Assembly (NCBI GenBank): GCA_020441665.1
Contig: JAGRLT010000114.1
Coordinates: forward strand, 1 to 54,606
Source: Nitratireductor sp.
Lineage (GTDB): Bacteria > Pseudomonadota > Alphaproteobacteria > Rhizobiales > Rhizobiaceae
Direction: 5' to 3'
DNA length: 54,606 bases
Part shown: positions 1,788 through 19,696 of the stretch, piece after piece
Position numbering within the stretch: position 1 is the first letter of the stretch
How the letters are laid out: each line of letters begins with the position of its first letter
Notes under the pieces: generated by a model
Databases searched by the model: none
What the model was told of the DNA's origin: nothing
What the model saw: the letters and a program-made list of their open reading frames with translations, nothing else
Position numbers and translations under genes: made by a program

Positions 1788-1830
1788 TTGCCTTGGAGCC
1801 GGAATCGGTATAAATTGAGTAATCACTCAA
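1788..1830 (+). promoter_or_regulatory. Promoter and palindromic operator (type A, site 1) for the Rieske oxygenase gene
   Basis: A TATAAA box (1809-1814) with a TTGCCT-like -35 (1788-1793, spacing somewhat short) is followed directly by the inverted repeat TTGAGT-N4-ACTCAA at 1815-1830, 17 bases before the start codon. The same element, differing by one base in the spacer, lies over the promoter at 11188-11207 between a BetI-like regulator and the FAD-oxidoreductase operon. Position just after the -10 box fits repression by a TetR/BetI protein, most likely the regulator at 10523-11143. Binding is inferred, not shown. Confidence 0.65.
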
Positions 1831-1847
1831 AAAATTCAGGAACCGTC

Positions 1848-3059
1848 ATGAACAGGCCGATTACGACCCGGGACATATCGACCCCGGAACATTGGGACCG
1901 CCGCGGCCTTCCCGGCTGGACCTATCACAGCAAGGCGTTTCTCGAGCTCGAAATCCGCGAGATCTTCCACACCCACTGGCAGATCGCCTGCCATGTGTCG
2001 GACGTGGCGGAGCCGGGCCGTTTCATCGCCCTCGACATCTGTGGCGAGCGCGCGCTCGTCCTGCGCGGCAATGACGGCGAGGTGCGCGCCTTCCACAATC
2101 TCTGCCGCCATCGCGGCGCCCGCGTCGTCGCCGGCGAGGTGGGAAAGTGCAAGGGCGCGCTGGTCTGCCCGTTTCACGGCTGGGTCTACAATCTCGATGG
2201 CACGCTGCGCGGCGCCGCGCGTCCCGATTCCTTTCCGGCGCTCGACAGGAAGGAATTCGGCCTGACCCCGATCGAAACCGAGATCTGGCAGGGCTTCGTC
2301 TTCATCCGATTTTCAGCCGGGCCGCAGCCTTCGGTCGCCGAACTGATGCAGCCCTTCGCGGCCGAAATGGACCACTACCGCATGGCGGACCTCGTGCCGA
2401 CCGAGGGGGTCTGGAAACAGGTGTCGCAGGTCAACTGGAAGTCGGTGCGCGATGTCGACAATGAAGGCTATCATGTGGCGCTCGCCCATCCCGCCCTGCA
2501 GGACCTCTATGGCCGCTCCTATTACGACGAACCCTTCGTCAACGGCGTGTGCCGCTCCTTTGCAAGCTGCAACGAGAACGGCCGTCTGTGGAGCGTGCAG
2601 CACTATCTCAAGGCACTCTCGCCGCGCGACCAAATGCCGGAGGAAATCGAAAGGGCGTGGATCTATTACAGCCTGTTTCCCAATGCCGTCATCGCGGTGA
2701 CGCCCGAACTCGTTCAGTTCTATCAGGAGTTTCCCCTGTCGACCGGCGAGAGCCTGTTGCGCGGCGCGATCTACCGCCATCGCGAGGAAACCCGCGAGCA
2801 AAGGATTGCCCGCGCGCTGGCGGTGCGCATCGACCGCCAGACCATGGCGGAGGATGTGCAATTGTCCGAATGGTCCAACGAGGCGATGAACTCATCGGCC
2901 TTTGAAGGCTTCTTCCTGTCCGATCTCGAATATGGCGTGCGTACCCATCACGACCATTTGCGCGCCATCCTGCCGGTTGCGGGTCTGGAGGAGCGGCCGG
3001 AGGAGGAGGATGTCGAGCGCCTCAACGCCGTCATGCGGCAGGCGGCAGGTCAGCTCTGA
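1848..3059 (+). CDS. Rieske non-heme iron oxygenase, betaine/carnitine demethylase-like
   Basis: A 403-residue alpha subunit of an aromatic-ring-hydroxylating-type oxygenase. The Rieske [2Fe-2S] ligands are C86-x-H88 (CRHRG) and C107-x2-H110 (CPFHGW). The mononuclear iron motif is H209-x4-H214 in DNEGYHVALAHP, and the residue bridging the two centres is Glu206 rather than the more usual Asp. A glutamate here is known in carnitine monooxygenase CntA. Family context (GbcA, CntA, stachydrine demethylase) suggests oxidation of an N-methyl group or a C-N bond of a quaternary amine, releasing formaldehyde or an aldehyde. No ferredoxin reductase partner is encoded nearby. The start at 1848 was chosen because the longer frame would begin upstream of the promoter and operator. 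The exact substrate is unknown. Confidence 0.85.
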   Translation: MNRPITTRDISTPEHWDRRGLPGWTYHSKAFLELEIREIFHTHWQIACHVSDVAEPGRFIALDICGERALVLRGNDGEVRAFHNLCRHRGARVVAGEVGKCKGALVCPFHGWVYNLDGTLRGAARPDSFPALDRKEFGLTPIETEIWQGFVFIRFSAGPQPSVAELMQPFAAEMDHYRMADLVPTEGVWKQVSQVNWKSVRDVDNEGYHVALAHPALQDLYGRSYYDEPFVNGVCRSFASCNENGRLWSVQHYLKALSPRDQMPEEIERAWIYYSLFPNAVIAVTPELVQFYQEFPLSTGESLLRGAIYRHREETREQRIARALAVRIDRQTMAEDVQLSEWSNEAMNSSAFEGFFLSDLEYGVRTHHDHLRAILPVAGLEERPEEEDVERLNAVMRQAAGQL

Positions 3060-3158: not shown

Positions 3159-4553
3159 TCAGCCGTTCCAGATGCCCTCGCGGCGCAATTCGTCCATGGT
3201 GCGGGAAATGCCCTCGCGCAGGATCGCCACCATCGTGTCGATCTGCCCGCGGTCGATGACGAGCGGCGGCGACATCACGCACATATTGATCAGCGGCCGC
3301 ACCAGCAGGCCGAGTTCCTGGCAATGCCGGTCGATCCGTGCGCCGACCTCCGTGTCGAGCCGCAGCGGGTTTTTCGTCTTGCGGTCGGCAACGCATTCGA
3401 CGCAGGCCATCAGGCCCATGCCGCGCACCTCGCCGACCAGTTCGAGGTCGCCGAGACTGCCGAGCGCGGCCTGGAAATACGGTTCGATCTCACGTGCATG
3501 GGCAAGCAGCCCGCCCTCCAGAAGGTCGAGATTCCTGAGTGCCACCGTGCTGCCGATCGGGTGGCTGGTATAGGTATAGCCATGGCCGAACATGGCGTCG
3601 GGATGGTTGGTCGTGCGCATTTCCTCCAGCAGCCGGTCGGAGATCGCAACGCCACCCACCGGGAAGTAGCCCGACGTGATGCCCTTGGCGAAGGTGATCA
3701 TGTCGGGCACGACACCGAACCGCTCCTGCGCGGAAAACACATGGCCGAGACGGCCGAATGCCGTCACCACCTCATCGGCGATGAACAGGATATCGTTGCG
3801 GGCGCAGATGTCGCGGATGCGGGCGAAATAGCCCTCCGGCGGCACGATCACCCCGCCCGACGCCATCACCGGCTCGCCGACAAAGGCGGCGATCGTCGCC
3901 GCGCCGTGGCGCTCCACCGCCGCTTCGAACTCGGCGACCAGATGGTCGCCAAAGGCTTCCGCCGTCATCCCTTCCGGCCGGCGGAACGGATCGGGCGAGG
4001 ACAGGCGGATGACCAGATCCTCGGCCGTGTCCATCCAGTTGCGGCTGCGCGGATTGCCGTTGAGCGACGCCGACAGATAGGTGCTGCCGTGATAGCCGCC
4101 CTCGCGGCAGAGGAGCTTCTTCTTCTCGGGCCGGCCGCGAACATTGTTGTAGAACCAGGCGAAGCGCAGCGCCGTTTCGACCGCGCTCGAGCCGCCGGTG
4201 GTAAAGAAGAAATGGTTGAGGTCGCCGGGCGTATGCGTCGCCAGCCTTTCGGCGAGCAGGGCGCCGGGCACGCTGCTCGTATACCAGGGCGTGTTGTAGG
4301 AAAGCGCCATGGCCTGTTCGTGCAGCGCATCGGCCAATACCTTGTTGCGGTGGCCGGCATTGGTGCACCACATCCCCGCCGGCCCGTCGATCAGCCGCCG
4401 CCCCGCATCGTCATAGATGTAGATGCCCTCGGCCTCGCCGATCATGGTGCGGCTTTCCGCGCCGATCGTTCCGGCATGGGGCCAGGGCTGGATGAGATGC
4501 CTGGCGGCAACCGTTCCGGCCGTTTCAAGGGTGAGCGAGGTCTGGTTTTTCAT
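3159..4553 (-). CDS. Class III PLP-dependent aminotransferase
   Basis: A 464-residue fold-type I omega-amino acid/diamine-pyruvate transaminase. Visible family features are the [12 protein letters not shown] substrate/cofactor entry segment, [15 protein letters not shown] (phosphate-binding loop), [23 protein letters not shown] with the PLP-binding Asp, and [17 protein letters not shown] containing the Schiff-base lysine. The start at 4553 has GGAAG about 7 bases upstream; the frame extends to 4676 but would run through the operator at 4638-4655. It is convergent with the Rieske gene and divergent from the ABC transporter genes, with a shared operator between, so its amine or amino-acid substrate is probably the imported compound or a breakdown product. 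Specificity (beta-alanine, gamma-aminobutyrate, putrescine or other) is not resolvable. Confidence 0.9.
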
Positions 4554-4637
4554 GACGGACTTCCGTTTCCGATGCGTGATCCGGTGGTGCCGGCGGCCTG
4601 CCCGCAACAAGCGAGATTGCCGCCGATTCCTCTTGCT

Positions 4638-4655
4638 ATTGAATGGCCATTCAGT
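4638..4655. promoter_or_regulatory. Palindromic operator (type B, site 1), aminotransferase/ABC intergenic region
   Basis: ATTGAATGG followed by CCATTCAGT, an 18-bp inverted repeat with one mismatched pair. It lies in the 334-bp divergent region between the aminotransferase (start 4553, minus) and the permease gene (start 4888, plus). A perfect version is at 10481-10502. The shape resembles the BetI operator class, and the likely ligand-responsive repressor is the BetI-like protein at 8900-9607, whose own operon carries the perfect copy. Apart from this site and the duplication at 4841-4868, the intergenic region is GC-rich and shows no gene. Confidence 0.65.
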
Positions 4656-4840
4656 CAGTAATGACAGAAAAACCACTTGCGCTCAATGCCCGTCATGCGC
4701 CAAATTCATGAGAACGGGGAGAGGGCAGGACGCCCGCCCGGGTGCGTCCGGGTGCGCGTGGGTGTGCTTGGGCGCAACAGGGTGGACAAGTCCCGCGGCG
4801 AGGGGCCGGACTGCGCCGGACGAGAAAGCGGAACATGGAA

Positions 4841-4868
4841 GCAGGCCGGGGGAAGCAGGCCGGGGGAA
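4841..4868 (+). repeat. Exact 14-bp tandem duplication upstream of permease gene
   Basis: GCAGGCCGGGGGAA occurs twice head to tail (4841-4854, 4855-4868), immediately 5' of the GGGAGG ribosome binding site of the permease gene. It is probably a replication-slippage duplication in the leader. No function is evident. Confidence 0.8.
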
Positions 4869-4887
4869 ACAGGACGGGAGGCAGGAC

Positions 4888-5808
4888 TTGAACGCAGGCG
4901 ACACGGCCGTTCGGGTGACCGGCGCAGCGAGAGCGGGCGGTGCCCGGTCATGGCTGCGCACCGATGCCGGCCAGGGCTGGCTGACCCTCTCGCCGCCCTT
5001 GCTCTACGCCATCCTGCTGCTGGTCGGCCCGATCCTGGTCATCATCGCCAACAGCTTCTGGACCCAGGACTATCTGACCATCGACCACACCTTCACGCTG
5101 AAGAACTATCGCGAGGCGCTGACCGAGCCGATCTACCGCGACCTGCTCGCCCGTTCGCTGTTCGTCGCGGTGCTGGTGAGCCTCGTCACCGTGATCCTCG
5201 CCTATCCCGTTGCCTGGTTCGTTTCCTTCCATGGTGGCAAGTACAAGGGCATCTGGCTGTTCGTCATCACCGTGCCGTTCTGGTCCGGCTACCTGCTGCG
5301 CATCCTGTCGTGGAAGGTCATTCTCGGTACCAATGGCGTCCTCAACACCGCGCTGCAGTATTTTTCGATCATCACCGAACCGGTGCAGTCGCTGCTCTAC
5401 AACACCAATGCCGTCATCATCACGCTCGCCCATAGCTGGGCGGCCTTTGCCCTGCTGCCGCTTTTCGTATCGCTCGAAAAGGTCGACCGTACCCTGCTCG
5501 AGGCCGCCGCCGATCTCGGCGACAACGCGCTGCGCCGTTTCGTGCGGATAACCCTGCCGCTCACCATGCCGGGCATCATTGCCGCGCTGATGATCGTCAT
5601 GATCCCGACCGTCGGCGACTATGTCACGCCCAAGCTCGTCGGCGGCAAGGACGGCGTGATGATCGCCAACGCCATCCAGGCGCAGTTCGGCAAGGCCGCC
5701 AACTGGCCGCTCGGCGCCGCGCTCGCCGTTTCCACCATGGTGGTCGTCGGCGCGGTATCCGGCCTGATGGTGCTGCTGCTGCTCGGGCTGAAAAGGCTGG
5801 TGCGATGA
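4888..5808 (+). CDS. ABC transporter permease, spermidine/putrescine (PotB) type
   Basis: A 306-residue inner-membrane permease with a first transmembrane helix around residues 35-60 (LSPPLLYAILLLVGPILVIIA) and further helices. It has the cytoplasmic EAA loop that contacts the ATPase (EAAADLGDN-x8-ITLPLTMPGI). The TTG start at 4888 is favoured by GGGAGG 6 bases upstream; GTG 4915 is an alternative. The stop overlaps the next permease start (ATGA at 5805), so the two are translationally coupled. With 5805-6608 and 6661-7749 it forms the membrane part of an importer of polyamine-like or quaternary-amine solutes. The binding protein is encoded separately at 7824-8903 on the other strand. Confidence 0.9.
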   Translation: MNAGDTAVRVTGAARAGGARSWLRTDAGQGWLTLSPPLLYAILLLVGPILVIIANSFWTQDYLTIDHTFTLKNYREALTEPIYRDLLARSLFVAVLVSLVTVILAYPVAWFVSFHGGKYKGIWLFVITVPFWSGYLLRILSWKVILGTNGVLNTALQYFSIITEPVQSLLYNTNAVIITLAHSWAAFALLPLFVSLEKVDRTLLEAAADLGDNALRRFVRITLPLTMPGIIAALMIVMIPTVGDYVTPKLVGGKDGVMIANAIQAQFGKAANWPLGAALAVSTMVVVGAVSGLMVLLLLGLKRLVR

Positions 5809-6608
5809 CGGGACGTTCGATCGGCAGGGGCATTCTGACCGGCTATGTGGCGCTCTATGTCGCCATTCTCTATTTTCCGGTTCTGCTTTTGCCGGTGTTC
5901 TCGTTCAACAATTCGGCCACCCCGAAGTTTCCGCTCACCGGCCTGACCTTCAAATGGTATGAGGGGCTTGCCGGCAATAGCGCAATGCATTCCGCCGCCT
6001 GGAATTCGCTGCTGGTCGGGGTCTGTGCCTCGCTGTTCAGCACGGTGCTGGGCATCTGCGCGGCGCGCGCCATCACCCGGCACAAATTTGCCGGCAAGGG
6101 TGCTGCCAGCGGCCTGATCATGGCGCCGCTCATCCTGCCGGAAATCATCATCGCGATCTCTCTCCTCGTGGTCCTTTTGAGCATCGGCATGGAACTGTCG
6201 CTGCTGACGGTCATATTGGGGCACCTGCTCATCTGCGTGCCCTATTCCGTCACCGTCCTGGTCTCCGGTTTCGAGGGCTTCGATCCGAGCATGGAGGAGG
6301 CTTCCCGCGATCTCGGCGAAACGGTCTGGGGCACCCTGCGCCGGGTCACCCTGCCGATGCTGATGCCGTCGATCGTCTCCAGCATGCTGGTGACCTTCAC
6401 CATCTCGCTCGACGAATTCATCCTCGCCTTTTTCCTGACCGGCACCGAGCCGACCCTGCCGGTCTATATCTGGGGCCAACTGCGCTTTGCGGCAAAGCTG
6501 CCCAACGTGCTGGCGCTCGGCTCGATCCTGATCGCGCTCTCTCTGGTGATGCTCACCGTCGCCGAACTGGTGCGCCGCAGGGCCGAGGCGCGAACGGCGA
6601 CGACATGA
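5805..6608 (+). CDS. ABC transporter permease, spermidine/putrescine (PotC) type
   Basis: A 267-residue second permease. It starts in a 4-bp ATGA overlap with the upstream permease. The N-terminal helix is followed by the short periplasmic segment NNSATPKFPLTGLTFKWYEGL, characteristic of PotC homologues, and the EAA loop is EEASRDLGE-x8-VTLPMLMPSI. It should pair with the PotB-type protein to form a heterodimeric channel. Confidence 0.92.
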   Translation: MTGRSIGRGILTGYVALYVAILYFPVLLLPVFSFNNSATPKFPLTGLTFKWYEGLAGNSAMHSAAWNSLLVGVCASLFSTVLGICAARAITRHKFAGKGAASGLIMAPLILPEIIIAISLLVVLLSIGMELSLLTVILGHLLICVPYSVTVLVSGFEGFDPSMEEASRDLGETVWGTLRRVTLPMLMPSIVSSMLVTFTISLDEFILAFFLTGTEPTLPVYIWGQLRFAAKLPNVLALGSILIALSLVMLTVAELVRRRAEARTATT

Positions 6609-6660: not shown

Positions 6661-7749
6661 ATGGCGGGCATGATCGAGATCGAGGGCGTTGAAAAGCACT
6701 ATGGCGGCTTCCGCGCCCTGGGCCCTGTCGGCGCCAGCATCGCCGAAGGCGAGTTCTTCTCGCTTCTCGGCCCCTCCGGCTGCGGCAAGACCACGCTGCT
6801 GCGGCTGATCGGCGGCTTCGACGAGCCGACGCGGGGAACGATCGCCATCGGCGGCGCCCCGATGGCCGGCCGGCCGGCCAATCTCAGGCCCACCAACATG
6901 GTGTTCCAGAGCTATGCGATCTTTCCCCATCTCAACGTCACGGAAAATGTCGCCTATGGCCTCAAGCGGCTGCGGCTCGGCGGCGAGGAGGAAAGGCGCC
7001 GGGTGGACGAAGCCCTGGTCCAGGTCGAACTTGCCGGCCTCGGTTCGCGCATGGGCAACCAGTTGTCCGGCGGCCAGCGCCAGCGCGTGGCGCTGGCCCG
7101 CGCCCTTGTCATGCGCCCCAAGGTGCTGCTGCTCGACGAGCCGCTGTCTGCCCTCGACAAGAAGCTGCGCGAGCAGATGCAGGTCGAACTGCGCCACCTG
7201 CAGCGCCAGATCGGCATCACCTTCGTGCTGGTAACCCACGACCAGTATGAGGCGCTCGGCATGTCGGACCGGATCGCCGTCATGTTCGGCGGCAGGATCG
7301 CCCAGATCGCGACGCCGAAGGAGATTTACCAGAATCCGGCCAGCCGCGAGGTTGCCGATTTCCTTGGCGGCATGAATTTCCTGACCGCCCGCGACATTGC
7401 CGCGAACGGTTCCGGTTTCTCCGCCGATCTGCCGGGCATTGGCGGGATCTCCGGCAGATTGCCGGCGGGCAGCGATCCGGCCGCGGCAGGGGCAGCGCCG
7501 GTCATCGGCATCCGCCCGGAGCGGCTGCGCATCGTGTGGGAAGGCGAAACGGCCGACCGCATCATCGAGGGCACGGTCGCCGATCGCCACTATTTCGGCG
7601 AGGTCACCAATCTCGTGGTCGACATCGAGGGCCAGGACGCGGCGGTCTCGGTGGTCGAGACCAACGACTTCGGCGCCGACGACATTCCGGTCGGGTCATC
7701 GATCCGGCTGACCTGCGATCCCGACGCCTTCGTCTTTATGCCGGGCTAG
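6661..7749 (+). CDS. ABC transporter ATP-binding protein, spermidine/putrescine (PotA) type
   Basis: A 362-residue ATPase. It shows Walker A GPSGCGKTT, Q-loop around VFQSYAIFPHL, signature LSGGQRQRVALARAL, Walker B VLLLDEPLSALD and the switch histidine in LVTHDQYEAL, followed by a C-terminal TOBE-like regulatory domain (about residues 240-362). It lies 52 bases after the second permease on the same strand and is the energising subunit of that importer. It is followed by a strong hairpin and then the convergent binding-protein gene. Confidence 0.93.
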   Translation: MAGMIEIEGVEKHYGGFRALGPVGASIAEGEFFSLLGPSGCGKTTLLRLIGGFDEPTRGTIAIGGAPMAGRPANLRPTNMVFQSYAIFPHLNVTENVAYGLKRLRLGGEEERRRVDEALVQVELAGLGSRMGNQLSGGQRQRVALARALVMRPKVLLLDEPLSALDKKLREQMQVELRHLQRQIGITFVLVTHDQYEALGMSDRIAVMFGGRIAQIATPKEIYQNPASREVADFLGGMNFLTARDIAANGSGFSADLPGIGGISGRLPAGSDPAAAGAAPVIGIRPERLRIVWEGETADRIIEGTVADRHYFGEVTNLVVDIEGQDAAVSVVETNDFGADDIPVGSSIRLTCDPDAFVFMPG

Positions 7750-7823: not shown

Positions 7824-8903
7824 TCAGTAGCCCGCCTTGATCTTCTCGAACTCGGCGATCATCTTCTGCTTCAGTTCCGACGGCACTGGCGACTGGAACA
7901 GGGTCTTGTCGACGAAGGCCTGGACGTCGCCATAACCGGTCGAATCCAGCGTCTCCTGGTCGATCGCCTCCATTCCCTTCGCATTGCTGTGGCCGTAGCC
8001 CCATTCGGAGACGATATAGGACGATACCCGGGGCTCGAGAATGGCGTTGAGGTAGTCATAGGCCTTGTCCTCGCTGCCCGGCGCATCGGCAAGCAGGGTG
8101 TAGCCGCAGACCCAGGTCGAAAGGCCTTCATCCGTATCCTTCTTGATCGCGACGGGCACGCCATCGGCCTGCAGCGTGACGGCGGTCTCGTTCCAGGCCC
8201 AGGCGAGATCGACCTCGCCGCCGGCCATCGCCTGGCTGAGTTCGGTATTGTCGGTCCAGTAGAGGCGGACATTCTTGTGCACCTGGCGCAGGAAATCCGA
8301 GGCCTGCGCGAACTGTTCGTCGCTCATCGTCGACCAGTCGGTGATGCCCAGGGCGAGGCTTGCCAGCGCATAGGCGTCATCGACATTGTCGCCGATCGAC
8401 ACGCGGCCCTCGAAGGCCGGATCGGCGAATGCCTTGAGCGACTGGACTTCCTCCGGCTTCACCTTCTCCGTCATATAGGTGACGACGGTATTGCCCCAGT
8501 CGAACGGCACCAGCCATGCCTGGCCGTCCTCGGTCGTCATCAGGTCCTTCATCGCCTTGATGCCCGGCAGGATATCGTTCCAGGCCGCGATGCGCGACGT
8601 GTCGAGCGGCTTCAGCAGGCCCGCCTCGCGCCATTTCACGACGCTTTGCGAACAGGGATGCGCCAGATCGGCCTTGAAGCCGGAGCGCAGTTTCTGGAAT
8701 GCTTCCTCCTCGTCGCCGAAGAAGGTGAAGGTGGGCGAATCGCCATGCTTTTCCACATAGGCGGGATGGAAGGCGGGGTCTTCATAGCCCGACCAGTCGA
8801 ACACGATCAGGTCTCCATCCTCCGCCAGAACAGGCGGGGACAGGGCAAGCGCGGTGGCGAGCGCAAGGCCGGCCACGGTCCCTTTCAGCAGTAAGGTCTT
8901 CAT
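7824..8903 (-). CDS. Periplasmic substrate-binding protein of polyamine-type ABC transporter
   Basis: A 359-residue secreted binding protein. It has a classic Sec signal peptide (MKTLLLKGTVAGLALATALA... ending near VLAED) followed by a PotD-like fold beginning LIVFDWSGYEDP. The segments SGFKADLAHPCSQSVVKW, VPFDWGNTVVTYMTEKV and GEVDLAWAWNETA match polyamine/opine-type binding proteins. Its start overlaps the stop of the TetR gene (ATGA, 8900-8903), with GGGAGAAG as ribosome binding site, so it belongs to the methyltransferase-regulator operon rather than to the permease operon it serves. Tryptophan- and tyrosine-rich segments would suit a cationic-amine pocket, but the ligand is unknown. Confidence 0.9.
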   Translation of the reverse strand: MKTLLLKGTVAGLALATALALSPPVLAEDGDLIVFDWSGYEDPAFHPAYVEKHGDSPTFTFFGDEEEAFQKLRSGFKADLAHPCSQSVVKWREAGLLKPLDTSRIAAWNDILPGIKAMKDLMTTEDGQAWLVPFDWGNTVVTYMTEKVKPEEVQSLKAFADPAFEGRVSIGDNVDDAYALASLALGITDWSTMSDEQFAQASDFLRQVHKNVRLYWTDNTELSQAMAGGEVDLAWAWNETAVTLQADGVPVAIKKDTDEGLSTWVCGYTLLADAPGSEDKAYDYLNAILEPRVSSYIVSEWGYGHSNAKGMEAIDQETLDSTGYGDVQAFVDKTLFQSPVPSELKQKMIAEFEKIKAGY

Positions 8904-9607
8904 TTTCTTCTCCCTTTTTTGCTCCTGTGAGCCTCAAGCAATGGCATGCCATCCGGCGCGAAATGGCACGGAAACACCGTGCCCAGCATTTCGAGTGCGG
9001 TCTTCAGCGCGGTCGCCCGCCGGTATTCCCGACCGCCCAGCGCCAGACGCAGCCAGAGCCCTTCCTGCATCGCGTAGATGGCGGCGGTGACGGTTTCGGG
9101 ATCGAAGGTGTAGTCCGCCTCCTCCTTCGCCATGCGGCAGTTCTCGGTGAGACAGGCGCGGTATCGGGCGTCGCGCTCCCAGACCAGTTTCTGGTAGGCG
9201 GGCCGCGACTTTGCTTCCGCCATCAGCGCGAACCAGGCCGATACCTTGCGCGGCGTGCAGATCGCCCTGTCGAGATCGGCGGTGACGAGCGCGGCAAGGC
9301 GCGAGGCGGTGTCGTCGTCGCTTGCCGCATACCGCGCCTTCCAGTTCGCCTGATACTCGTCCGACATGAATTGCAGGGTTTCGATCAGCAGATTGTCCTT
9401 GCTGTCGAAGTGGAAATTGACGATGCCGCGCGACAGCCGGGCGCCGTCGGAGACATTGGCAAGCGTGGTGGAGGCATAGCCGCGCCGGGCAAGCGAATCG
9501 ATCGTCGCATTGATCAACTGCTCGCGCCGCTTCTCCTTCGATTCGCGCCGCCGCCCCGTTCCCGCGGCCTCGCCTGCTTCATCCTTCTGAGCGCTTGTTT
9601 TGGCCAA
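8900..9607 (-). CDS. TetR/BetI-family transcriptional regulator (regulator 1)
   Basis: A 235-residue repressor. The N-terminal HTH (about residues 20-65) contains RREQLINATIDSLARRGYASTT and the recognition region SRGIVNFHFDSKDNLL. The C-terminal ligand domain has BetI-like segments (WFALMAEAKSRPAYQKL, MQEGLWLRLALGG). The TTG start at 9607 has AGGAG 7-8 bases upstream, overlapping the stop region of the preceding methyltransferase gene. Because its operon carries the perfect type B palindrome (10481-10502), I infer that it autoregulates and also controls the aminotransferase/ABC region through the site at 4638-4655. It could instead sense the same ligand as regulator 2. Confidence 0.85.
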   Translation of the reverse strand: MAKTSAQKDEAGEAAGTGRRRESKEKRREQLINATIDSLARRGYASTTLANVSDGARLSRGIVNFHFDSKDNLLIETLQFMSDEYQANWKARYAASDDDTASRLAALVTADLDRAICTPRKVSAWFALMAEAKSRPAYQKLVWERDARYRACLTENCRMAKEEADYTFDPETVTAAIYAMQEGLWLRLALGGREYRRATALKTALEMLGTVFPCHFAPDGMPLLEAHRSKKGRRK

Positions 9608-9617
9608 TCGCGTGCTC

Positions 9618-10427: not shown

Positions 10428-10480
10428 CGGCATTCCTCCCGGCCAAACTATCCGGTCGGGAGGCAGAAATTGCAACACTT

Positions 10481-10502
10481 TTATTGAATGGCCATTCAAT
10501 AA
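10481..10502. promoter_or_regulatory. Perfect 22-bp palindromic operator (type B, site 2)
   Basis: The arm TTATTGAATGG is followed with no spacer by its exact reverse complement. It lies between the stop of regulator 2 (10523) and the start of the methyltransferase gene (10427), about 54 bases before that start. It shares its 16-bp core, except one base, with the site at 4638-4655. It is inferred to be the binding site of BetI-like regulator 1, encoded in the operon it controls. Confidence 0.7.
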
Positions 10503-11143: not shown

Positions 11144-11162
11144 CGATCTCTGATTAGCCAAC

Positions 11163-11207
11163 TGGACAAATTCGGCAAAGCGGAATATTTTGAGTAAACA
11201 CTCAAAA
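11163..11207 (+). promoter_or_regulatory. Promoter with overlapping type A operator (site 2)
   Basis: TGGACA (11163-11168), 17-base spacer, TATTTT (11186-11191), then the inverted repeat TTTTGAGT-N4-ACTCAAAA (11188-11207), which overlaps the -10 box and probable start site. It is 12 bases upstream of the TTG start of the first FAD oxidoreductase. Core and flanking A-tract match the Rieske site (1815-1830) at all but one position. The layout predicts repression by steric blocking of RNA polymerase. Confidence 0.7.
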
Positions 11208-11219
11208 AATGAGGTCACG

Positions 11220-12836: not shown

Positions 12837-14329
12837 CCGGCGCCCCCGACGCGATCGTCATTGGCGGCGGCCATAACGGCCTTGTCGCGGCGGCCCTGCT
12901 TGCCCGGCGCGGCATGCGGCCGCTGGTGCTCGAAGCCCGTAACCATGCCGGCGGCATGCTGGGGGATGCCGAATTTCCCATTTCGCCCATGCCCTTCGCC
13001 CTGCGCCCGGAAATCTGCCGAGCGCTCGCGATCGATGTCGCCACCCGTCCGATGGAAACCATCGTCGCATCGCCCCTGAATAGCTTGAGCGGTACGCTGC
13101 GGGTTTCCGGCAGCCGGCTCGACGGCGGCAGCCCGCAGCAGGCCGAAGCCTTCCGCCAGCTCGTGGAGCGCCTTGCCCGCCAGGCCGAGGCGCTTTCCGG
13201 CATGCTGCTGCGCGCCCCGCCACGGCTCGATGGCGCAGGCCCGCGCGACTTGCTGGCGCTCGCCGGAACGGGCTGGAAACTGCGCCGCCTCGGCAAGGTC
13301 GATCTGCGCGATCTGCTGCGCATCGCGCTGTCCAATGTCCACGACCTGGTGGAGGACGAGCTTGGCCTGGGCCTGCCCGGCGCGCTGCTGGCGATGGAGG
13401 CGACCCTGGGCGGCGCCATGGGTCCGCGCTCGCCGGGCACCGTATTGACCCTGCTCTACCGCATGGCTTCAAATGGTGGCCGGCGCATGATGCCCGTGGG
13501 CGGTCCCGGCGCTCTGACGCAGGCGCTCGCAGCCGCGGTGACGCGGGCAGGAGGCGAAATCCGCCTTAATGCGCCGGTCGAGAGAATCCTGGTCGAAGGC
13601 GACCGCGCCGCCGGCGTCGCCCTGTCGAATGGCGAGATCGTGCGGGCTTCGCTGGTGCTTTCCTCCGCCGCGCCGCGCACGACCCTGCTCGACCTTCTGG
13701 GGCCCGGACATCTCGATGCCGAATGGGTCCGCCGCTGCCGGAACATGGCTTGCACGGGCATGGTGGCGCGGCTCGATTTCGATCTCTTAGCACCGCCACG
13801 GCTTGCCGGCGGCGAGGTGCTCGAAGCCGATCAGCGTCTCGTCGTCGCGGCCGATGCCGGGACGGTCGAAACCGCCTTCAACGCCGCGAAACATGGCAAA
13901 TTGCCCGACGATCCGGTGATGGAGGCCTGTTACGACGCTGGCAGCAGGCGCCTGCGCGTCAGCGTGCAATTCATTCCCCATTCGCCCCGGGGCGGCTGGA
14001 CCGAGGCCAACCGCCAGATGCTGGAAACATCGGTCAGGCGGCAGCTGGGCTTCGTGCTCGCCGGGTTCGAGGACAGCGTCACGGCGAGCCGGATGATGGC
14101 CCCCGCCGACATCGAAACCGCCTATGGCATACCGGGCGGGCACTGGCATCACGGCGAACTGCGCATCGACCAGATGCTGATGCTGCGGCCGTTCGACGGC
14201 GCGGCGGGATATCGCATGCCGGTCGAGGGGCTCTATCTGTGCGGCGCGGGCTCCCATCCCGGCGGCGACATCTCCGGCGCGCCGGGCTTCAACGCCGCCA
14301 ATGCCGCTCTGGCGGCGAGGAGACACTGA
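12833..14329 (+). CDS. CrtI/phytoene-desaturase-like FAD oxidoreductase 2
   Basis: A 498-residue paralogue of the preceding protein. FAD motif is VIGGGHNGLVAAALLARRG with EARNHAGGMLG, and the C-terminal segment is YLCGAGSHPGGDISGAPGFN. It is translationally coupled to both neighbours (ATGA overlap upstream; TGATG overlap at 14327-14331 downstream), suggesting fixed stoichiometry. It is shorter in the middle than partner 1 and diverged, so the two probably form a heteromer or act on successive intermediates rather than being redundant. Confidence 0.86.
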   Translation: MTGAPDAIVIGGGHNGLVAAALLARRGMRPLVLEARNHAGGMLGDAEFPISPMPFALRPEICRALAIDVATRPMETIVASPLNSLSGTLRVSGSRLDGGSPQQAEAFRQLVERLARQAEALSGMLLRAPPRLDGAGPRDLLALAGTGWKLRRLGKVDLRDLLRIALSNVHDLVEDELGLGLPGALLAMEATLGGAMGPRSPGTVLTLLYRMASNGGRRMMPVGGPGALTQALAAAVTRAGGEIRLNAPVERILVEGDRAAGVALSNGEIVRASLVLSSAAPRTTLLDLLGPGHLDAEWVRRCRNMACTGMVARLDFDLLAPPRLAGGEVLEADQRLVVAADAGTVETAFNAAKHGKLPDDPVMEACYDAGSRRLRVSVQFIPHSPRGGWTEANRQMLETSVRRQLGFVLAGFEDSVTASRMMAPADIETAYGIPGGHWHHGELRIDQMLMLRPFDGAAGYRMPVEGLYLCGAGSHPGGDISGAPGFNAANAALAARRH

Positions 14330-15564
14330 TGGTGAAACCCACGCAAGGGGCGCCCCGGCGCCGTATCGCCCCTCAGGTCATCCCTCAGGTTATCACCGGC
14401 CTCGAACCAGGCCCCTTTCACGCCCGCATCGCCGCGCTCAACCACCAGCATGCCTGGACCAACTGGATGGGCTTTGCCTCGCCCGCCGTTCTCGACAGCG
14501 TCGAGTTCGAGTATTTCGCCATCCGCAATCAGACAACGCTGTTCGACATCTCGCCGATGTGCAAATACGCCATCGAAGGGCCGGATGCCGAGCGCGTCGT
14601 CAACCGGCTCGTCACCCGCGACATCGGCAGGCTTTCCCCCGGCAGGGTCACCTATGCGATCTGGTGCGACGAGGACGGCCAGGTCATCGATGACGGCACG
14701 ATCTTCCGCCTTGCCGACGATTGCTTCCGCCTCTGCTGCCAGGAACCGCAGCTTGCCTGGCTGAGCGACATCGCCTGGGGCTTCGACGTCACCATCCGCG
14801 ATGTCAGCCGCGAGATCGCGGCGCTTTCCCTGCAGGGTCCGACCAGCGCGGCCTTGCTGCGCTCGCTCGGCGTCAAGGCGATCGAGGCTTTGAAACCCTT
14901 CGGCATCGCTTCCATCCGGATCGGCGAGTGCGAAGTCGACGTGTCGCGCACCGGTTTTACCGGCGATCTCGGCTACGAATTGTGGATGCGGCCGCCCGAC
15001 GCCGCCCGGGTCTGGGACCGGCTGATGGCGGCGGGCGACAATTGGGGCCTGCGTGCGATCGGCTATCAGGCGGTCGAGATGGCGCGCATCGAGGCCGGTT
15101 TCCTGCTGCCCAAGATCGACTTTCTTTCGGCCCGTTCGGCGCTCAGGACCAACCGTCCCTCGACCCCGTTCGAGCTTGGCCTCGACGCGATGGTCGATCT
15201 TGCCAAGCCCCATTTCAACGGCAGGCGGGCGCTGCTGCGGCTTGCCGGCGAAAGGCCGGCGCGCAAGCTCTTCGCGGTCGAGATCGAGCGCGACAAGCCG
15301 GCGGCGAACGCCCTGGTCTATCACCGCCGCAAGCGCGAGGTCGGCATGATCACCTCGGCACTGTGGTCGCCGACCTGCAAGCGCAACATCGCCTATGCCT
15401 GGCTCGATGCGCCCTTCGGCCAGACCGGGACCGACGATCTCTGGGTCGAGATCTATCTGCAGCGCGAAATCCGCTGGGAACGCCGCATGGCACGCTGCCG
15501 CATCGTCGACAAGCCGTTTTTCGTCCATCAGCGGCGGCGCCAGACACCGCCTGCAAATATGTGA
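14329..15564 (+). CDS. GcvT-like aminomethyltransferase / folate-dependent demethylase
   Basis: A 411-residue protein of the GcvT/DmdA family. Family segments include TLFDISPMCKYAIEGPDAE, DEDGQVIDDGTIFR (with the conserved Asp region), LQGPTSAALL, RTGFTGDLGYELW and MARIEAGF. These proteins transfer a C1 group from an amine or sulfonium donor to tetrahydrofolate. It is not the glycine-cleavage T protein, which is encoded at 49308-50384. Co-operonic with two FAD oxidoreductases, it would suit oxidation of an N-methyl group followed by C1 capture on folate, as in dimethylglycine/sarcosine dehydrogenase systems where both activities are fused. Donor unknown. Confidence 0.83.
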   Translation: MVKPTQGAPRRRIAPQVIPQVITGLEPGPFHARIAALNHQHAWTNWMGFASPAVLDSVEFEYFAIRNQTTLFDISPMCKYAIEGPDAERVVNRLVTRDIGRLSPGRVTYAIWCDEDGQVIDDGTIFRLADDCFRLCCQEPQLAWLSDIAWGFDVTIRDVSREIAALSLQGPTSAALLRSLGVKAIEALKPFGIASIRIGECEVDVSRTGFTGDLGYELWMRPPDAARVWDRLMAAGDNWGLRAIGYQAVEMARIEAGFLLPKIDFLSARSALRTNRPSTPFELGLDAMVDLAKPHFNGRRALLRLAGERPARKLFAVEIERDKPAANALVYHRRKREVGMITSALWSPTCKRNIAYAWLDAPFGQTGTDDLWVEIYLQREIRWERRMARCRIVDKPFFVHQRRRQTPPANM

Positions 15565-15579: not shown

Positions 15580-15810
15580 ATGAAGGCACTGCCGCAGATC
15601 AGGGCGGTTTGCGACGAGGACGAACGGCAACTGGCCCTGCTGGCAACGCCTCTGGGCAGAGCCGGCTCCGGCATGACGCGCTATGCCGCCGCCATGTATT
15701 TTCACCGCTCCGGCCGTCTGGACGACGATCTGCTCGAAGCCTACCGCATCTGCTGCAAGCTCGATCACGAGGATGTGCTCGCGGTTCTGAAAAGCCGGGA
15801 AAAATCCTGA
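15580..15810 (+). CDS. Small uncharacterised protein (76 aa) of the FAD/GcvT operon
   Basis: A 76-residue soluble protein with no signal peptide or membrane helix. It has a very good ribosome binding site (GGGGGAGGG just upstream) and begins 15 bases after the GcvT-like stop, so it is translated from the same message. It is rich in predicted helical segments, with cysteines at residues 11, 58 and 59 (VCDEDE; RICCKLD). I do not recognise the family. Position suggests an accessory or small subunit of the neighbouring oxidoreductase/demethylase proteins. Confidence 0.7.
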   Translation: MKALPQIRAVCDEDERQLALLATPLGRAGSGMTRYAAAMYFHRSGRLDDDLLEAYRICCKLDHEDVLAVLKSREKS

Positions 15811-15927: not shown

Positions 15928-17184
15928 ATGGATGCAGGAATGGCCTTTTCTCCCGAATTGCTGGCGGAAATCCGCGCCCGGTTTGCCCATGTGGATCGTT
16001 GCCCGTTTCAGGGCGAGCGGGTCTTCTTCGAAAATGCCGGCGGCGCCCTGACGCTGAAATCGGTGGTCGAAACCTCGGCCGGATTTGCCGCCATTCCCGA
16101 CAATCAGGGCCGCGACAACATCGCGTCGAAGGCGCTGGTCGACATCATTCAAAAGGCCCGCCAAGACGCCCATGGCCTGTTCAACGCTTCGGGCGGCCAG
16201 ATATTTGTCGGCGAAAGCGGCACCGAGCTTCTGTTCCGCCTGATCCGCAGCGCCTGCGTGGCGAGCGGCGAGGGCGGCAGCGCGGTCTTCTCCACCGTCG
16301 AACACCCGGCAACCCGCAGCGCCATCGCCCATTGGGCGACGGTGACCGGCAAGGAACTGCTCGCCGTGGTTCACGACGATGCTGCGGGCTCGGTCGGTGC
16401 GCAAGCCTATGCGGCGAGCGTGCGGCCCGACACCAGGGTCGCGACCATCCTGCATTGTTCGCCGGTCACCGGCATCGGCAACGATGTCGCCGCCATCGCG
16501 GCGGCGATCCGCACCACCGCACCCGATTGCTTCATCATCGTCGACGGCATCCAGTTTGCCGCCCATGGCGCGATCGACATCGACGCCTATGGCATCGACG
16601 GCTATGTGGTTTCGCCCTACAAGATGTTCTCGCGCCACGGCTACGGCCTTGCCTGGATTTCCGACCGGCTTGGCGCGGTGCCGCATGAAAGGCTGATCGA
16701 TGGGCCGGAACTCAATTGGGAATTCGGCACCCGCGATACCGGCTCCTACGCGACCTTTTCGGACGTGGTCGCCTATCTCGACTGGCTCGGCGCACACTTT
16801 ACCGCCTCGGCCGGCCGGCGTGCCCGGATCGAGGCTGCCGCTTCCGCCATCCAGGCGCAGGAACACGATCTCTGCACGCTGATGCTGGAAGGCGAGGGCA
16901 ATCTGACCGGCCTTGCCCATCTGCCGGGGGTCGGCATCGTCGCCGGCGCCGGCAATGAAGGCCGCAAGGGGCTGGTGAGTTTCTGGAAGGACGGTATGCC
17001 GGCGGCGGAAATCGTCGCGAAGCTCAACGAGGCCGGCATCCGCACCCATGTCCGCAAGGCCGACCACTATTCAGCCAATATCCTCGCCCCGCTCGGCCTC
17101 GAGGCCTGCGTACGCGTCTCCGTCTGCCATTACAATTCGCGCGACGAGGTCAAGAAAATGCTCTCGGTGCTCAACAGCCTGTAG
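15928..17184 (+). CDS. Class V aminotransferase / cysteine-desulfurase-like PLP enzyme
   Basis: A 418-residue fold-type I PLP enzyme of the NifS/isopenicillin-N-epimerase-like class V group. Visible features are FENAGGALT near the N-terminus, the GGQIFVGESGTELLFRL phosphate-loop region, LHCSPVTGIGNDV, IIVDGIQFAAHGAID with the PLP-contact Asp and His, and VVSPYKMFSRHGYG with the Schiff-base lysine. It does not show the flexible active-site cysteine loop of housekeeping IscS, so desulfurase activity is uncertain; C-N or C-S lyase or epimerase chemistry is equally possible. The start is 15928, or in-frame ATG 15940. It lies 117 bases after the small protein, probably in the same unit. Confidence 0.85.
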   Translation: MDAGMAFSPELLAEIRARFAHVDRCPFQGERVFFENAGGALTLKSVVETSAGFAAIPDNQGRDNIASKALVDIIQKARQDAHGLFNASGGQIFVGESGTELLFRLIRSACVASGEGGSAVFSTVEHPATRSAIAHWATVTGKELLAVVHDDAAGSVGAQAYAASVRPDTRVATILHCSPVTGIGNDVAAIAAAIRTTAPDCFIIVDGIQFAAHGAIDIDAYGIDGYVVSPYKMFSRHGYGLAWISDRLGAVPHERLIDGPELNWEFGTRDTGSYATFSDVVAYLDWLGAHFTASAGRRARIEAAASAIQAQEHDLCTLMLEGEGNLTGLAHLPGVGIVAGAGNEGRKGLVSFWKDGMPAAEIVAKLNEAGIRTHVRKADHYSANILAPLGLEACVRVSVCHYNSRDEVKKMLSVLNSL

Positions 17185-17198
17185 AGCATGCAGGCGCT

Positions 17199-18464
17199 CT
17201 ATCGCTTGGCTTCGACGGCCCGCCTTGCCTGATGATAGTTCCGATAGCTGCTCTGGATGGCGATCTGGTCGGCGACGAACCTCGCATCGTGCCACACGCC
17301 CCAGATGAACGACGATCCGCGCCGCGACTGCCAGGGAAGGCCGACGAAATAGACGCCCGGTTCCCGGCCGACGCCGCGAACATGCACCGGGCGGCCGCGT
17401 TCGTCGAAAGTATCCGCCTTGAGCCAGCCATAGTCGACGGTAAAGCCCGTCGCCCACACGATGGTGCGGATATCGGCAGTGGCAAGATCGAGACTGAGGA
17501 CCGGATGGGTGACACAGTCCGGGTCATCGGGAATGCGATGCGCCTGCGGCTCCTCGGGAAGGTCGAGCCCGTTGCATACCACAAACGCGTCCGCCTCCTT
17601 CAGCACCGAAAGATAGTTCGCATCGCCCCGGCGCAGATTGTCGCCGAGATCGTCGGCGAAGGCCATGACGCCGTTGTCATAGGACCGCGCCATGCCGAGA
17701 AGGATCATGCCCTGTTCGGCAAGCTGGCGGAACTCGATCGTCTTGCCGCCGCCGGCGCCGCTGACCGCGATGGTGACATGCTCCGTGCCCGGTCCCGGTG
17801 TCGGCGCGTCCCATTTGCCCAGAACGCCCAGCCACCAGCAATTGTCGCGGCCGCGATAGGCGCGCGGCGGCCGGTCATGGCCGCCGATCGACAGATAGAC
17901 CTTGCGCCCGGACTGCATCAGTTCATCGGCAATCTGTGTCCCCGACGATCCGCCGCCGATCACCAGCACTGCGCCATCGGGCAATTGCGCCGGATTCTTG
18001 TATTGGGCCGAATGCAATTGCGTCACGCCGGCATCGGCCGGCACGATCGGTGGAATGGAAGGAACCTGGAACGCGCCGGTGGCGGCGACGATGTTCTGCG
18101 CCTCGACGGCACCTTGCGAGGTCTCCACCATGAAGCCGGGCCTGCCTTCCAGCCTGCGCGCTTCAAGCACCTCCACGCCGCAGCGGATCGGGGCGCCGAT
18201 CTTTTCCGCATAGGCGACGAAATAATCGGCCACGCTTTCCTTCGACACAAAGGCTTCGCCATCGCCGTCAAATGCCAGATTGGGAAACCGGTCATGCCAG
18301 GCCGGGCCGTTGGCAACCAGCGAATCCCAGCGCTCCGAGCGCCAGCGTTCGGCGATCCGGCCGCGCTCGAAGACGATATGCGAAATGCCGAGCTTGCCGA
18401 GATGTTCGCTCATCGCGACCCCCGCCTGCCCGCCACCGACAACGACCGTATTCACCTCTTCCAT
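17199..18464 (-). CDS. Flavin-containing monooxygenase-like oxidoreductase
   Basis: A 421-residue flavoprotein with an N-terminal FAD motif (VVVGGGQAGVAMSEHL, residues 7-22) and a second nucleotide-binding motif (VLVIGGGSSGTQIADEL), plus WATGF near the C-terminus as in FMO/CzcO-type enzymes. It likely uses NADPH and O2 to oxygenate an amine or sulfur atom or a ketone. It converges on the class V enzyme with only 14 bases between stops. A half-site of the type B operator (CCATTCAA, 18461-18468) overlaps its start codon, but a single half-site is weak evidence of regulation. It probably shares a transcript with the CoA-transferase upstream (44-base gap). Confidence 0.85.
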   Translation of the reverse strand: MEEVNTVVVGGGQAGVAMSEHLGKLGISHIVFERGRIAERWRSERWDSLVANGPAWHDRFPNLAFDGDGEAFVSKESVADYFVAYAEKIGAPIRCGVEVLEARRLEGRPGFMVETSQGAVEAQNIVAATGAFQVPSIPPIVPADAGVTQLHSAQYKNPAQLPDGAVLVIGGGSSGTQIADELMQSGRKVYLSIGGHDRPPRAYRGRDNCWWLGVLGKWDAPTPGPGTEHVTIAVSGAGGGKTIEFRQLAEQGMILLGMARSYDNGVMAFADDLGDNLRRGDANYLSVLKEADAFVVCNGLDLPEEPQAHRIPDDPDCVTHPVLSLDLATADIRTIVWATGFTVDYGWLKADTFDERGRPVHVRGVGREPGVYFVGLPWQSRRGSSFIWGVWHDARFVADQIAIQSSYRNYHQARRAVEAKR

Positions 18465-18508
18465 TCAAGACTCCGCTTCGATCGATCGCATCGGCTGCAA
18501 AGGTCCGT

Positions 18509-19696
18509 TCAGCCGCCCGCCTTGCCCAACAGTTCCTCCAGCACGGCATCGGTATCCGCACCGCATTTGGGTGGCGCATACCGGTAGGTGACCGGGGATT
18601 TGGAAAACTTCACCGGATTGCCGATCAGCGGCACGGTCCCCTTCGCCGCATCGGGATGGGGCATGTCGATGCGCATGCCGCGTGCCCGGGCCTGATCGGA
18701 TTCAAGCGCTTCGCCCACCGTGTTGATCGGCCCGCCGGGAATCTTGCGCTCCGCCATACGGGCGAGAAGAGCGTCGCGCGTAAAGCCGGCAATGCGCTCG
18801 GCAAGCAGCGGCACCAGTTCCGCCCGGTTCTCGACCCGTGCCGAATTGCCGGCAAAGCGCGGATCGTCGCCCAGCGCCTCGATGCCGAGGATCGCGCAGA
18901 AGCGGCGGAACTGTTCGTCATTGCCGACCGCGACGATCAGATGCCCGTCGCTTGCCGTAAATACCTGATAGGGAACGATATTGGGGTGGGCATTGCCCCG
19001 GCGCACCGGCGAGACGCCCGAGACGAGGTAGTTGGTCCCCTGATTGGCGAGGCAGGCCATCTGCACATCGGCCAGCGAAAGGTCGATCTGCTGGCCCTCG
19101 CCGGTCGCATCGCGATGGCGCAGTGCCGCCAGAATGGCGCTGGCCGAATAGAGCCCGGTGCAGATATCGGTGATCGCGACGCCGACCTTCATCGGTTCGC
19201 CCGCCGCTTCCCCGGTAATGCTCATCAGCCCGCCAAAGGCCTGCGCCATGAGGTCGTAGCCCGGCAGATGGGCATTGGGTCCGGTCTGTCCGAAGCCCGA
19301 GATCGAGCAATAGACGACAGAGGGAAACGCCGCCGCGATCTGAGAATAGGAAAGGCCGTATTTGTCGAGCCCGCCCGGCTTGAAGTTCTCGATCACCACA
19401 TCCGAAACCGCGATCAGCCGGCGGATCAGCGCCTGGCCTTCCTCGGTCGCGATGTCCAGCGCGACCGAACGCTTGTTGCGGTTGACCGACAGGTAGTAGG
19501 CGCTTTCGGTCGGCTTGCCGCCATCGGCGGGGGTGACGAAGGGCGGACCCCATTGGCGGGTATCGTCGCCGGCGCCCGGCTTTTCCACCTTGATCACATC
19601 GGCGCCGAAATCGCCAAGCAGTTGCGTGCAGGTCGGTCCCGCTAGGATGCGCGACAGGTCCAGTATTCGAATGCCGTGTAGCGGGCCCTGGTTCAT
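18509..19696 (-). CDS. CaiB/BaiF-family (class III) CoA-transferase
   Basis: A 395-residue family III CoA-transferase. Signature segments are GIRILDLSRILAGPTCTQLLGDFGADVIKVEKP at the N-terminus (quoted here in part: LAGPTC, DFGADVIKVE), VIENFKPGG, and GVAITDICTG with Asp177 as the likely catalytic aspartate that forms the acyl anhydride. Such enzymes move CoA between carboxylates, for example in carnitine, crotonobetaine or formyl/oxalyl metabolism. It is the first gene of a minus-strand pair with the FMO-like gene. If the pair belongs to the island, it would activate a carboxylate left after amine removal; no operator links it. Confidence 0.88.
   Translation of the reverse strand: MNQGPLHGIRILDLSRILAGPTCTQLLGDFGADVIKVEKPGAGDDTRQWGPPFVTPADGGKPTESAYYLSVNRNKRSVALDIATEEGQALIRRLIAVSDVVIENFKPGGLDKYGLSYSQIAAAFPSVVYCSISGFGQTGPNAHLPGYDLMAQAFGGLMSITGEAAGEPMKVGVAITDICTGLYSASAILAALRHRDATGEGQQIDLSLADVQMACLANQGTNYLVSGVSPVRRGNAHPNIVPYQVFTASDGHLIVAVGNDEQFRRFCAILGIEALGDDPRFAGNSARVENRAELVPLLAERIAGFTRDALLARMAERKIPGGPINTVGEALESDQARARGMRIDMPHPDAAKGTVPLIGNPVKFSKSPVTYRYAPPKCGADTDAVLEELLGKAGG

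Follow-up and report, generated by a model that had tools for sequence, protein, structure and literature searches.

What do the genes near one end of a Nitratireductor contig do together, and where does the unit that they form begin and end? The stretch analysed here (the window) is the whole of contig JAGRLT010000114.1, 54,606 nucleotides of a 3.34-Mb assembly in 173 contigs (GCA_020441665.1). The genes in question encode a Rieske-type oxygenase, a class III aminotransferase (AT3), a PotABCD-type importer, a PMT-type methyltransferase, two BetI-type TetR regulators, two CrtI-like flavoproteins (FAD1 and FAD2), a GcvT-like protein, a 76-residue protein (p76) and, to the right of it, a class V pyridoxal phosphate (PLP) enzyme, a flavin monooxygenase-like (FMO-like) flavoprotein and a CaiB-like protein. 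An earlier, sequence-only reading had taken all of these as a single catabolic island for a methylated amine or betaine. Scans of open reading frames (ORFs) and protein families place every gene that it named where it had been put, and its first 13 genes hold together in outline; the last three fall away. The core of Rieske oxygenase, AT3, importer, both regulators, methyltransferase, FAD1-FAD2-GcvT trio and p76 is a real module, recurrent and co-inherited, whose genes, co-inheritance, shared palindromes and family assignments can be read from the sequence itself. On balance, this module is probably an inducible regulon for the breakdown of a quaternary amine whose demethylation yields a primary amine.

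Recurrence is the first line of evidence. Seventeen genes of the window were mapped by tblastn onto the loci of eight relatives (chosen because they bear p76), five plasmid records and 80 loci carrying FAD1, the latter being the best 80 of at least 594 in the genome collection; they represent the near end of that larger set, are rich in Mesorhizobium and in some cases repeat one contig obtained by another route (L015 and L067). Hoeflea is among the named relatives that stand nearest by FAD1, and culturable carriers of the module include Hoeflea alexandrii DSM 16655 as well as type strains of Shinella and Mesorhizobium. The trio is complete in all 59 loci that extend over at least 19 kb. Across the 80, the second FAD gene is present in 79 and GcvT in 76, and the four loci lacking GcvT reach a contig end. 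Within the same flanks an AT3-type gene is found in 69 loci, a TetR gene in 70, PotA/PotB-type genes in 69, the methyltransferase in 41, any Rieske gene in 40 and p76 in 38, all counted at E 1e-5 and including paralogues near 30% identity. At this threshold the class V PLP enzyme, the FMO-like protein, the CaiB-like protein and a BioY-type biotin importer gene directly before the module (756-1355) are each matched in 0/80 loci, and the first three in none of the 13 further mapped loci. All four are therefore rejected as members, and the borders of the module are set at p76 on the right (15810) and at the Rieske gene on the left (1848, with a palindrome at 1815). One BioY-like match elsewhere lies ~9 kb from p76 (L135). 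The loss of CaiB also removes a step of the sequence-only reading, in which the CaiB of the window would have activated the carbon skeleton with CoA; a few other lineages carry an ADP-forming acyl-CoA ligase.

Co-inheritance was assessed for p76, FAD1, the Rieske oxygenase and the methyltransferase across one set of 199 family genomes. FAD1 orthologues were accepted from 62% identity upwards; of the 50 genomes with a match at E 1e-100, five with 37-42% matches only were dropped. By these measures p76 is carried by 49 genomes, FAD1 by 45, the Rieske oxygenase by 51 and the methyltransferase by 42, the weakest members counted being one Rieske at 55% and one methyltransferase at 43% identity. Every one of the 45 FAD1 genomes also carries p76 and the Rieske oxygenase, so that, together with the completeness of the trio, the co-occurrence elsewhere on which the sequence-only reading had staked its island is borne out. 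The p76 genomes are in turn a subset of the Rieske genomes (49/49), only G502 and G527 having the Rieske oxygenase without p76, and FAD1 overlaps with the methyltransferase in 38 genomes, the latter being absent from seven of the 45. Fisher tests of co-occurrence range from 1e-29 to 1e-44, values in which shared ancestry is not accounted for. In 12 of the 45 genomes the Rieske gene is separated from FAD1 by more than 20 kb or sits on a different contig (in six cases a different contig of a draft), and the association is therefore not one of proximity alone.

How p76 fits into this pattern is less obvious from its sequence, which matches no family in Pfam or NCBIfam and whose best match to solved structures has an E of 1.2. 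The protein is conserved at 38-68% identity to 39 relatives, with G26, S30, G31, R34, Y35, A38, L52, E53, R56 and D62 invariant, and a class-wide draw, with no more than 15 candidates scored for any genome in the rows listed, found it in one of 385 genomes, the source genome itself. In Fuscovulum (L019:23623-24498) p76 forms the N-terminal part of a cupin protein (Pfam PF16867) resembling the lyases of dimethylsulphoniopropionate (DMSP), and similar p76-cupin proteins occur in Defluviimonas (at the end of L100, where the locus end cuts it), a Marivivens metagenome-assembled genome (MAG) and an uncultured Rhodobacteraceae MAG; the fusion is thus counted in four Rhodobacterales loci, its Pfam support coming from L019 alone. 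A Rieske oxygenase of at least 57% identity is present in 17 of the 80 loci, all of which also have p76, and 21 of the 38 p76 loci are without such a Rieske inside their flanks. In the window p76 is located behind GcvT, not behind the Rieske gene. The idea that p76 is a subunit of the trio only was rejected: four genomes have p76 and the Rieske oxygenase with no FAD1 match at E 1e-100, and p76 immediately follows the Rieske gene in L142 and L143, two Rhodobacterales MAGs with a cupin-type protein, as it does in G596. From this phyletic pattern we infer that p76 is tied to the Rieske oxygenase rather than to the trio.

The promoters of the module supply a further line of evidence, in the form of two palindromes that each occur twice in the window. 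Type 1, TGAATGGCCATTCA, is placed before AT3 and the permeases and before the methyltransferase-TetR1-binding protein genes, and TGAATGNCCATTCA with up to one mismatch is found nowhere else in the assembly. Type 2, TTGAGTNANCACTCAA, is placed before the Rieske gene and in the TetR2/FAD1 gap, is likewise found nowhere else in the assembly, and reaches its count in 0/100 shuffles of the window. The conserved part of type 1 is its two half-sites, the centre being variable, and a correspondingly relaxed pattern gives 83 sites in 97 sequences, 53 of which have at least one, against none for the reversed pattern and 0-4 for ten first-order resamples; without the window 81 sites are counted, one of them inside a matched gene. 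In relatives such as L020, L022, L047, L053, L058 and L064 a type 1 palindrome stands alike before the Rieske gene, between AT3 and the permease and before FAD1, and in the window and some relatives it precedes the methyltransferase. The stricter TTGAAYGNNCRTTCAA, searched in the 49 p76 genomes, gives 54 exact sites over 38 of them (backward control, 1), of which 18 lie less than 200 bp before the Rieske gene, 6 before FAD1 and 27 elsewhere within 12 kb, making 51 of 54 within 12 kb of one or the other gene. A relaxed type 2-like site lies between TetR2 and FAD1 in three of 11 loci examined (L010, L026 and L027), a count made without a control, and such a site precedes the Rieske gene in L025. 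Both regulators carry TetR_N and TetR_C_6 domains above the Pfam cut-offs, as BetI-type TetR proteins do. The palindromes are named here as candidate TetR operators and, judging by position, TetR1 likely binds type 1 and TetR2 likely binds type 2.

Three TTGAAYGNNCRTTCAA sites are far from both genes. One, in G518 (L137:3294-9051), lies 3.66 Mb from the Rieske gene, directly before a second PotABC set and after an Amidohydro_3 gene on the same strand; amidohydrolases similar to that of L137 are found near the module in L019, L074 and L099. The other two, one located at a TetR gene (L138) and one next to a gene for a topoisomerase (L139), may be chance hits.

The features of the module and its right-hand neighbours are collected in the table below. 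Several proteins were first scanned as longer ORFs, and the starts listed, picked from start-codon lists, are putative. The sole tRNA gene found in the window is a tRNA-Gln (ttg) at 44826-44900.

Table. Genes and candidate operators of the module, followed by the three genes to its right (positions in the window).
Feature	Position	Strand	Remarks
Operator type 2 (TTGAGTAATCACTCAA)	1815-1830	.	Ends 18 bp before Rieske start; candidate operator
Rieske-type oxygenase, proposed quaternary-amine N-demethylase	1848-3059	+	Pfam Rieske + Ring_hydroxyl_A, on longer ORF 1710-3059
Class III aminotransferase AT3	3159-4553	-	Pfam Aminotran_3; NF005447 of NCBIfam at 666 bits (cut-off 618, exceeded); 3i5t closest among solved proteins (482 bits)
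Operator type 1 (TGAATGGCCATTCA)	4640-4653	.	Exact palindrome in AT3/permease divergent promoter; candidate operator
ABC permease, PotB-like	4888-5808	+	Pfam BPD_transp_1 on longer ORF 4423-5808; start uncertain
ABC permease, PotC-like	5805-6608	+	Pfam BPD_transp_1
ABC ATPase, PotA-like	6661-7749	+	Pfam ABC_tran + TOBE_2
Solute-binding protein, PotD family	7824-8903	-	phmmer to PotD, 79.8 bits
TetR1, BetI-type TetR regulator	8900-9607	-	Pfam TetR_N + TetR_C_6 on longer ORF 8900-9862; start uncertain
N-methyltransferase, PMT-type, dependent on S-adenosylmethionine (SAM)	9618-10433	-	5wp5, 144 bits, residues 18-258
Operator type 1	10485-10498	.	52 bp before methyltransferase start; candidate operator
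TetR2, BetI-type TetR regulator	10523-11143	-	Pfam TetR_N + TetR_C_6 on longer ORF 10523-11218
Operator type 2 (TTGAGTAAACACTCAA)	11190-11205	.	In TetR2/FAD1 divergent promoter; candidate operator
FAD1, CrtI/CrtO-like flavoprotein	11220-12836	+	Pfam Amino_oxidase on longer ORF; TTG start assumed
FAD2, second CrtI-like flavoprotein	12833-14329	+	Pfam Amino_oxidase on longer ORF
GcvT-like folate-binding protein	14329-15564	+	Pfam GCV_T 194 bits on longer ORF 13723-15564
p76, 76-aa protein	15580-15810	+	Conserved in relatives
Class V PLP enzyme	15928-17184	+	VC1184-like, below NCBIfam cut-off; not module member
FMO-like flavoprotein	17199-18464	-	MSMEG_0569-like, below NCBIfam cut-off; not module member
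CaiB-like	18509-19696	-	Not module member

What route would such a gene set serve? Homology to enzymes of known function suggests the chemistry, the order of steps, the formation of complexes and the quaternary nature of the substrate, and on this footing the PotABCD-type transporter would import the cation, from whose quaternary nitrogen the Rieske oxygenase, assisted by p76, would oxidise one methyl group. FAD1 and FAD2 would then oxidise a remaining N-methyl, the methylene passing to tetrahydrofolate on the GcvT-like subunit, as in the fused DAO-GcvT demethylases, and the freed amine would be transaminated by AT3, with the two BetI-type repressors keeping the promoters shut until induction. 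Import, N-demethylation, transfer of C1 groups to folate and removal of nitrogen had already been outlined by the sequence-only reading, and that part of it fits a co-inherited and co-regulated module.

The Rieske oxygenase is the natural starting point for weighing this proposal. Its two domains score well above their Pfam cut-offs (Rieske 71.2 versus 20.3 bits; Ring_hydroxyl_A 98.1 versus 24.9), and carnitine monooxygenase (6y9c/6y8j, 110 bits) ranks first among its solved relatives, followed by 4qup, deposited as a demethylase, and 3vca, presumably Stc2, at 103.5 bits. The best NCBIfam model, GbcA (NF058607), is matched at 134.8 bits, far below its cut-off of 670, which leaves the protein outside that family.

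Genes that accompany the trio elsewhere bear on the same point. Clustering of 91 loci, in which each cluster was named from one or two representatives, finds near the trio a MAO-type amine oxidase resembling putrescine oxidase (23 loci), an acyl-CoA dehydrogenase (12), an Oxidored_FMN-type flavoprotein (9), a PuuC-like aldehyde dehydrogenase (8), a beta-keto acid cleavage enzyme (6), an ADP-forming acyl-CoA ligase (5 + 4), a PuuA-like ligase (5) and a DAO-type flavoprotein (5). The Oxidored_FMN-type flavoprotein, whose best NCBIfam model is a mycofactocin OYE (old yellow enzyme) at a score below cut-off, belongs to a family that we take to be like trimethylamine dehydrogenase (TMADH). MTTB-family proteins occur in five loci, strong in L026 and L027 and weaker or partial in L097, L084 and L034; the two strong genes (L026:14314-15891 and L027:14314-15891) lie directly behind GcvT, and that of L026, which was tested against the family, has no in-frame stop. 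An 819-aa protein with a GcvT-like part adjoins the module in L059 and L081. Present in a minority of loci, these demethylase-like extras (MTTB, Oxidored_FMN/TMADH-type, DAO-type and 819-aa GcvT proteins) point to a quaternary amine. Three other readings of neighbouring genes were rejected. MTTB does not replace the Rieske oxygenase in Marivivens, where a Rieske (59-60% identical) lies just outside the examined flank and MTTB is an addition; the one thiamine diphosphate (TPP) enzyme tested from those near some loci falls in the 5-guanidino-2-oxopentanoate decarboxylase family, not in an Xsc/taurine route; and the list of 14 solved relatives obtained for the single acyl-CoA dehydrogenase tested contains no glutaryl-CoA dehydrogenase.

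The importer raises the alternative that the module degrades a non-quaternary polyamine or diamine, perhaps with a single N-methyl group, in which case the Rieske enzyme would hydroxylate carbon and the trio would oxidise secondary amines. A PotABCD-type importer suits such a compound, as do the relatives of AT3 among omega-amine transaminases and, in the clusters given above, the MAO-type oxidase, PuuC-like dehydrogenase and PuuA-like ligase. The solute-binding protein falls under its own Pfam cut-off (23.7 versus 25 bits) but reaches 79.8 bits to PotD of known structure, and its pocket pattern is conserved in 57 relatives. The aromatic residues of the PotD site are kept; three aligned acidic positions, which we take to be polyamine ligands, have become G, N and C in the protein of the window, a pattern that its family conserves; a fourth is kept as D. 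Loss of the three acidic positions therefore disfavours an ordinary polyamine. Since, in addition, the closest solved Rieskes are mostly quaternary-amine demethylases (one of them so labelled on our assumption), and GcvT and MTTB point to methyl groups, polyamine catabolism appears unlikely. Taken together, the solved relatives of the Rieske and GcvT-like proteins and the extra genes favour a substrate with several N-methyl groups, the nitrogen of which would end as a primary amine.

The trio is where the proposed route departs from known enzymes. The GcvT-like protein falls within its family (GCV_T 193.8 bits, GCV_T_C 42.3 bits), and its closest solved relative is the GcvT part of trimethylamine N-oxide (TMAO) demethylase, at 162 bits, with which DD, SRTG-TG--GYE and RIEAG stretches align; these are presumably functional stretches of that enzyme. 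Membership of the whole-enzyme families is not supported, the TMAO demethylase model NF053776 giving 258.5 bits against a cut-off of 1100 and covering model positions 389-760 only, and the soxA model of heterotetrameric sarcosine oxidase giving 144.2 bits against 1164. FAD1, which in the window shares 61-85% identity with the other 24 sequences of its alignment, and FAD2 best match Amino_oxidase and CrtO/CrtI, not DAO-type proteins. Could the two flavoproteins instead dehydrogenate C-C bonds of the carbon skeleton, with GcvT serving the formaldehyde released by the Rieske oxygenase? This alternative concerns one step only and is compatible with the rest of the route. CrtO and CrtI are indeed the best family models, and the best solved relative of the pair is a phytoene dehydrogenase. 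However, every carotenoid model stays far under its cut-off (CrtI model TIGR02734, 238 bits; CrtO model NF045689, 1000 bits), with FAD1 at 114 and 261 bits and FAD2 at 78 and 150 bits, respectively, and GcvT accompanies the FAD pair in all 59 of the longer loci, including loci without a Rieske match in their flanks. Carbon-skeleton dehydrogenation is on these grounds possible yet doubtful.

The methyltransferase, rightly labelled 'PMT-like' by the sequence-only reading, has phosphomethylethanolamine N-methyltransferase as its best solved match. This enzyme invites a different explanation of the whole module, namely the making or recycling of an N-methylated osmolyte, in which the imported amine would be methylated and the other enzymes would trim or recycle the product. 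Its presence in about half of the 80 loci and the palindrome before its gene would fit. It is, however, the member missing from seven FAD1 genomes and was not detected in the loci from Beta- and Gammaproteobacteria, and the aminotransferase and, in some loci, the acyl-CoA ligase and dehydrogenase suit breakdown, which makes an osmolyte module improbable.

Against these arguments for quaternary-amine catabolism under a shared control, several observations must be set. For a demethylation route it is unexpected that the regulon includes a SAM-dependent PMT-type methyltransferase, which has no obvious catabolic role, and the PuuC-like, PuuA-like and MAO-type enzymes elsewhere are compatible with a polyamine as well. 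Among those genes of the window that were scanned, neither a Rieske reductase nor an aldehyde dehydrogenase was recognised. Outside the p76 lineages, Rieskes close to the trio mostly share 24-40% identity with that of the window, and the substrate may therefore vary. The four genomes with no FAD1 match at E 1e-100 (one of which, G016, has none at a looser cut-off either) keep an importer and a TetR gene besides p76 and the Rieske oxygenase, and the trio is therefore not obligatory. As to the palindromes, type 1 with three mismatches shows no enrichment in the window (3 sites versus 2.4 expected), its exact 14-base window form occurs in 0/136 loci, and 11 of the 49 p76 genomes have no exact TTGAAYGNNCRTTCAA.

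Which compound feeds the quaternary-amine route can be narrowed only by guesses, among them beta-alanine betaine, gamma-butyrobetaine and delta-valerobetaine, all omega-amino-acid betaines, or a trimethylated diamine. Beta-alanine betaine is suggested by weak hints: the DMSP-lyase-like cupin, the ADP-forming ligase, which is near 3-hydroxypropionate and 4-hydroxybutyrate ligases at scores far below their cut-offs, and a malonyl-CoA synthase that, with a molybdenum oxidase, lies next to the module in L026 and L027 only. The trio is spread over Alpha-, Beta- and Gammaproteobacteria, in records titled as isolates from roots, as bog or fen samples and as marine samples; a widespread natural amine therefore probably feeds it. 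As a tentative synthesis, to which we give somewhat less than even credence, the trio would represent a new class of oxidative N-demethylases, coupled to folate and using a pair of CrtI-type flavoproteins in place of the DAO-type flavin domain, p76 would be a new small protein that assists a Rieske demethylase of quaternary amines and is akin to the N-terminal domain of cupins resembling DMSP lyases, and the favoured single substrate would be an omega-amino-acid betaine, e.g. beta-alanine betaine, the nitrogen analogue of DMSP. If true, this would add a flavoprotein-plus-GcvT demethylase to one-carbon metabolism and provide a candidate partner protein for Rieske oxygenases, as well as a promoter palindrome by which the route could be spotted in genomes. 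The gene set and its promoters are defined well enough for substrate screening.

Quaternary-amine catabolism as such is known; two components, p76 and the pairing of CrtI-type flavoproteins with GcvT, may be new in kind. No publication on this gene combination was found among the best literature matches, in a coverage outside which most subscription papers lie. With CntA and GbcA the Rieske oxygenase shares its domain pair, carnitine monooxygenase being its closest solved relative and GbcA its best NCBIfam model; it differs in its sub-threshold GbcA score and in having no recognised reductase gene beside it in the window. To our knowledge, p76 is no part of the CntA or GbcA systems. Its likeness is to the DMSP-lyase-like cupins, of which it forms the N-terminal part in Fuscovulum and relatives, whereas in the window it stands alone, without a cupin. 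As for regulation, a study of Ruegeria pomeroyi describes two BetI proteins and a BetI1 box, ATTGACG-CGTCAAT, in choline catabolism (PMC12442346). The module likewise has two BetI-type repressors, and that box resembles ATTGAAYGNNCRTTCAAT; the palindrome of the module is longer, has another centre and stands before another gene set. MtgBCD of the same species demethylates glycine betaine aerobically by a cobalamin route that delivers the methyl groups to folate (PMC12478193). The window differs from the system so described in having a Rieske oxygenase and the trio, with no MTTB gene among those scanned, and resembles it in that a quaternary amine would be demethylated aerobically and its methyl groups passed to folate; MTTB-family proteins are present in five module loci. 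Finally, the trio shares with TMAO demethylase, dimethylglycine oxidase/dehydrogenase and sarcosine oxidase a GcvT-type folate domain and the proposed transfer of C1 units to tetrahydrofolate but, unlike in those DAO-GcvT enzymes, GcvT is here a separate protein, the gene partners of which are two CrtI-type flavoproteins.

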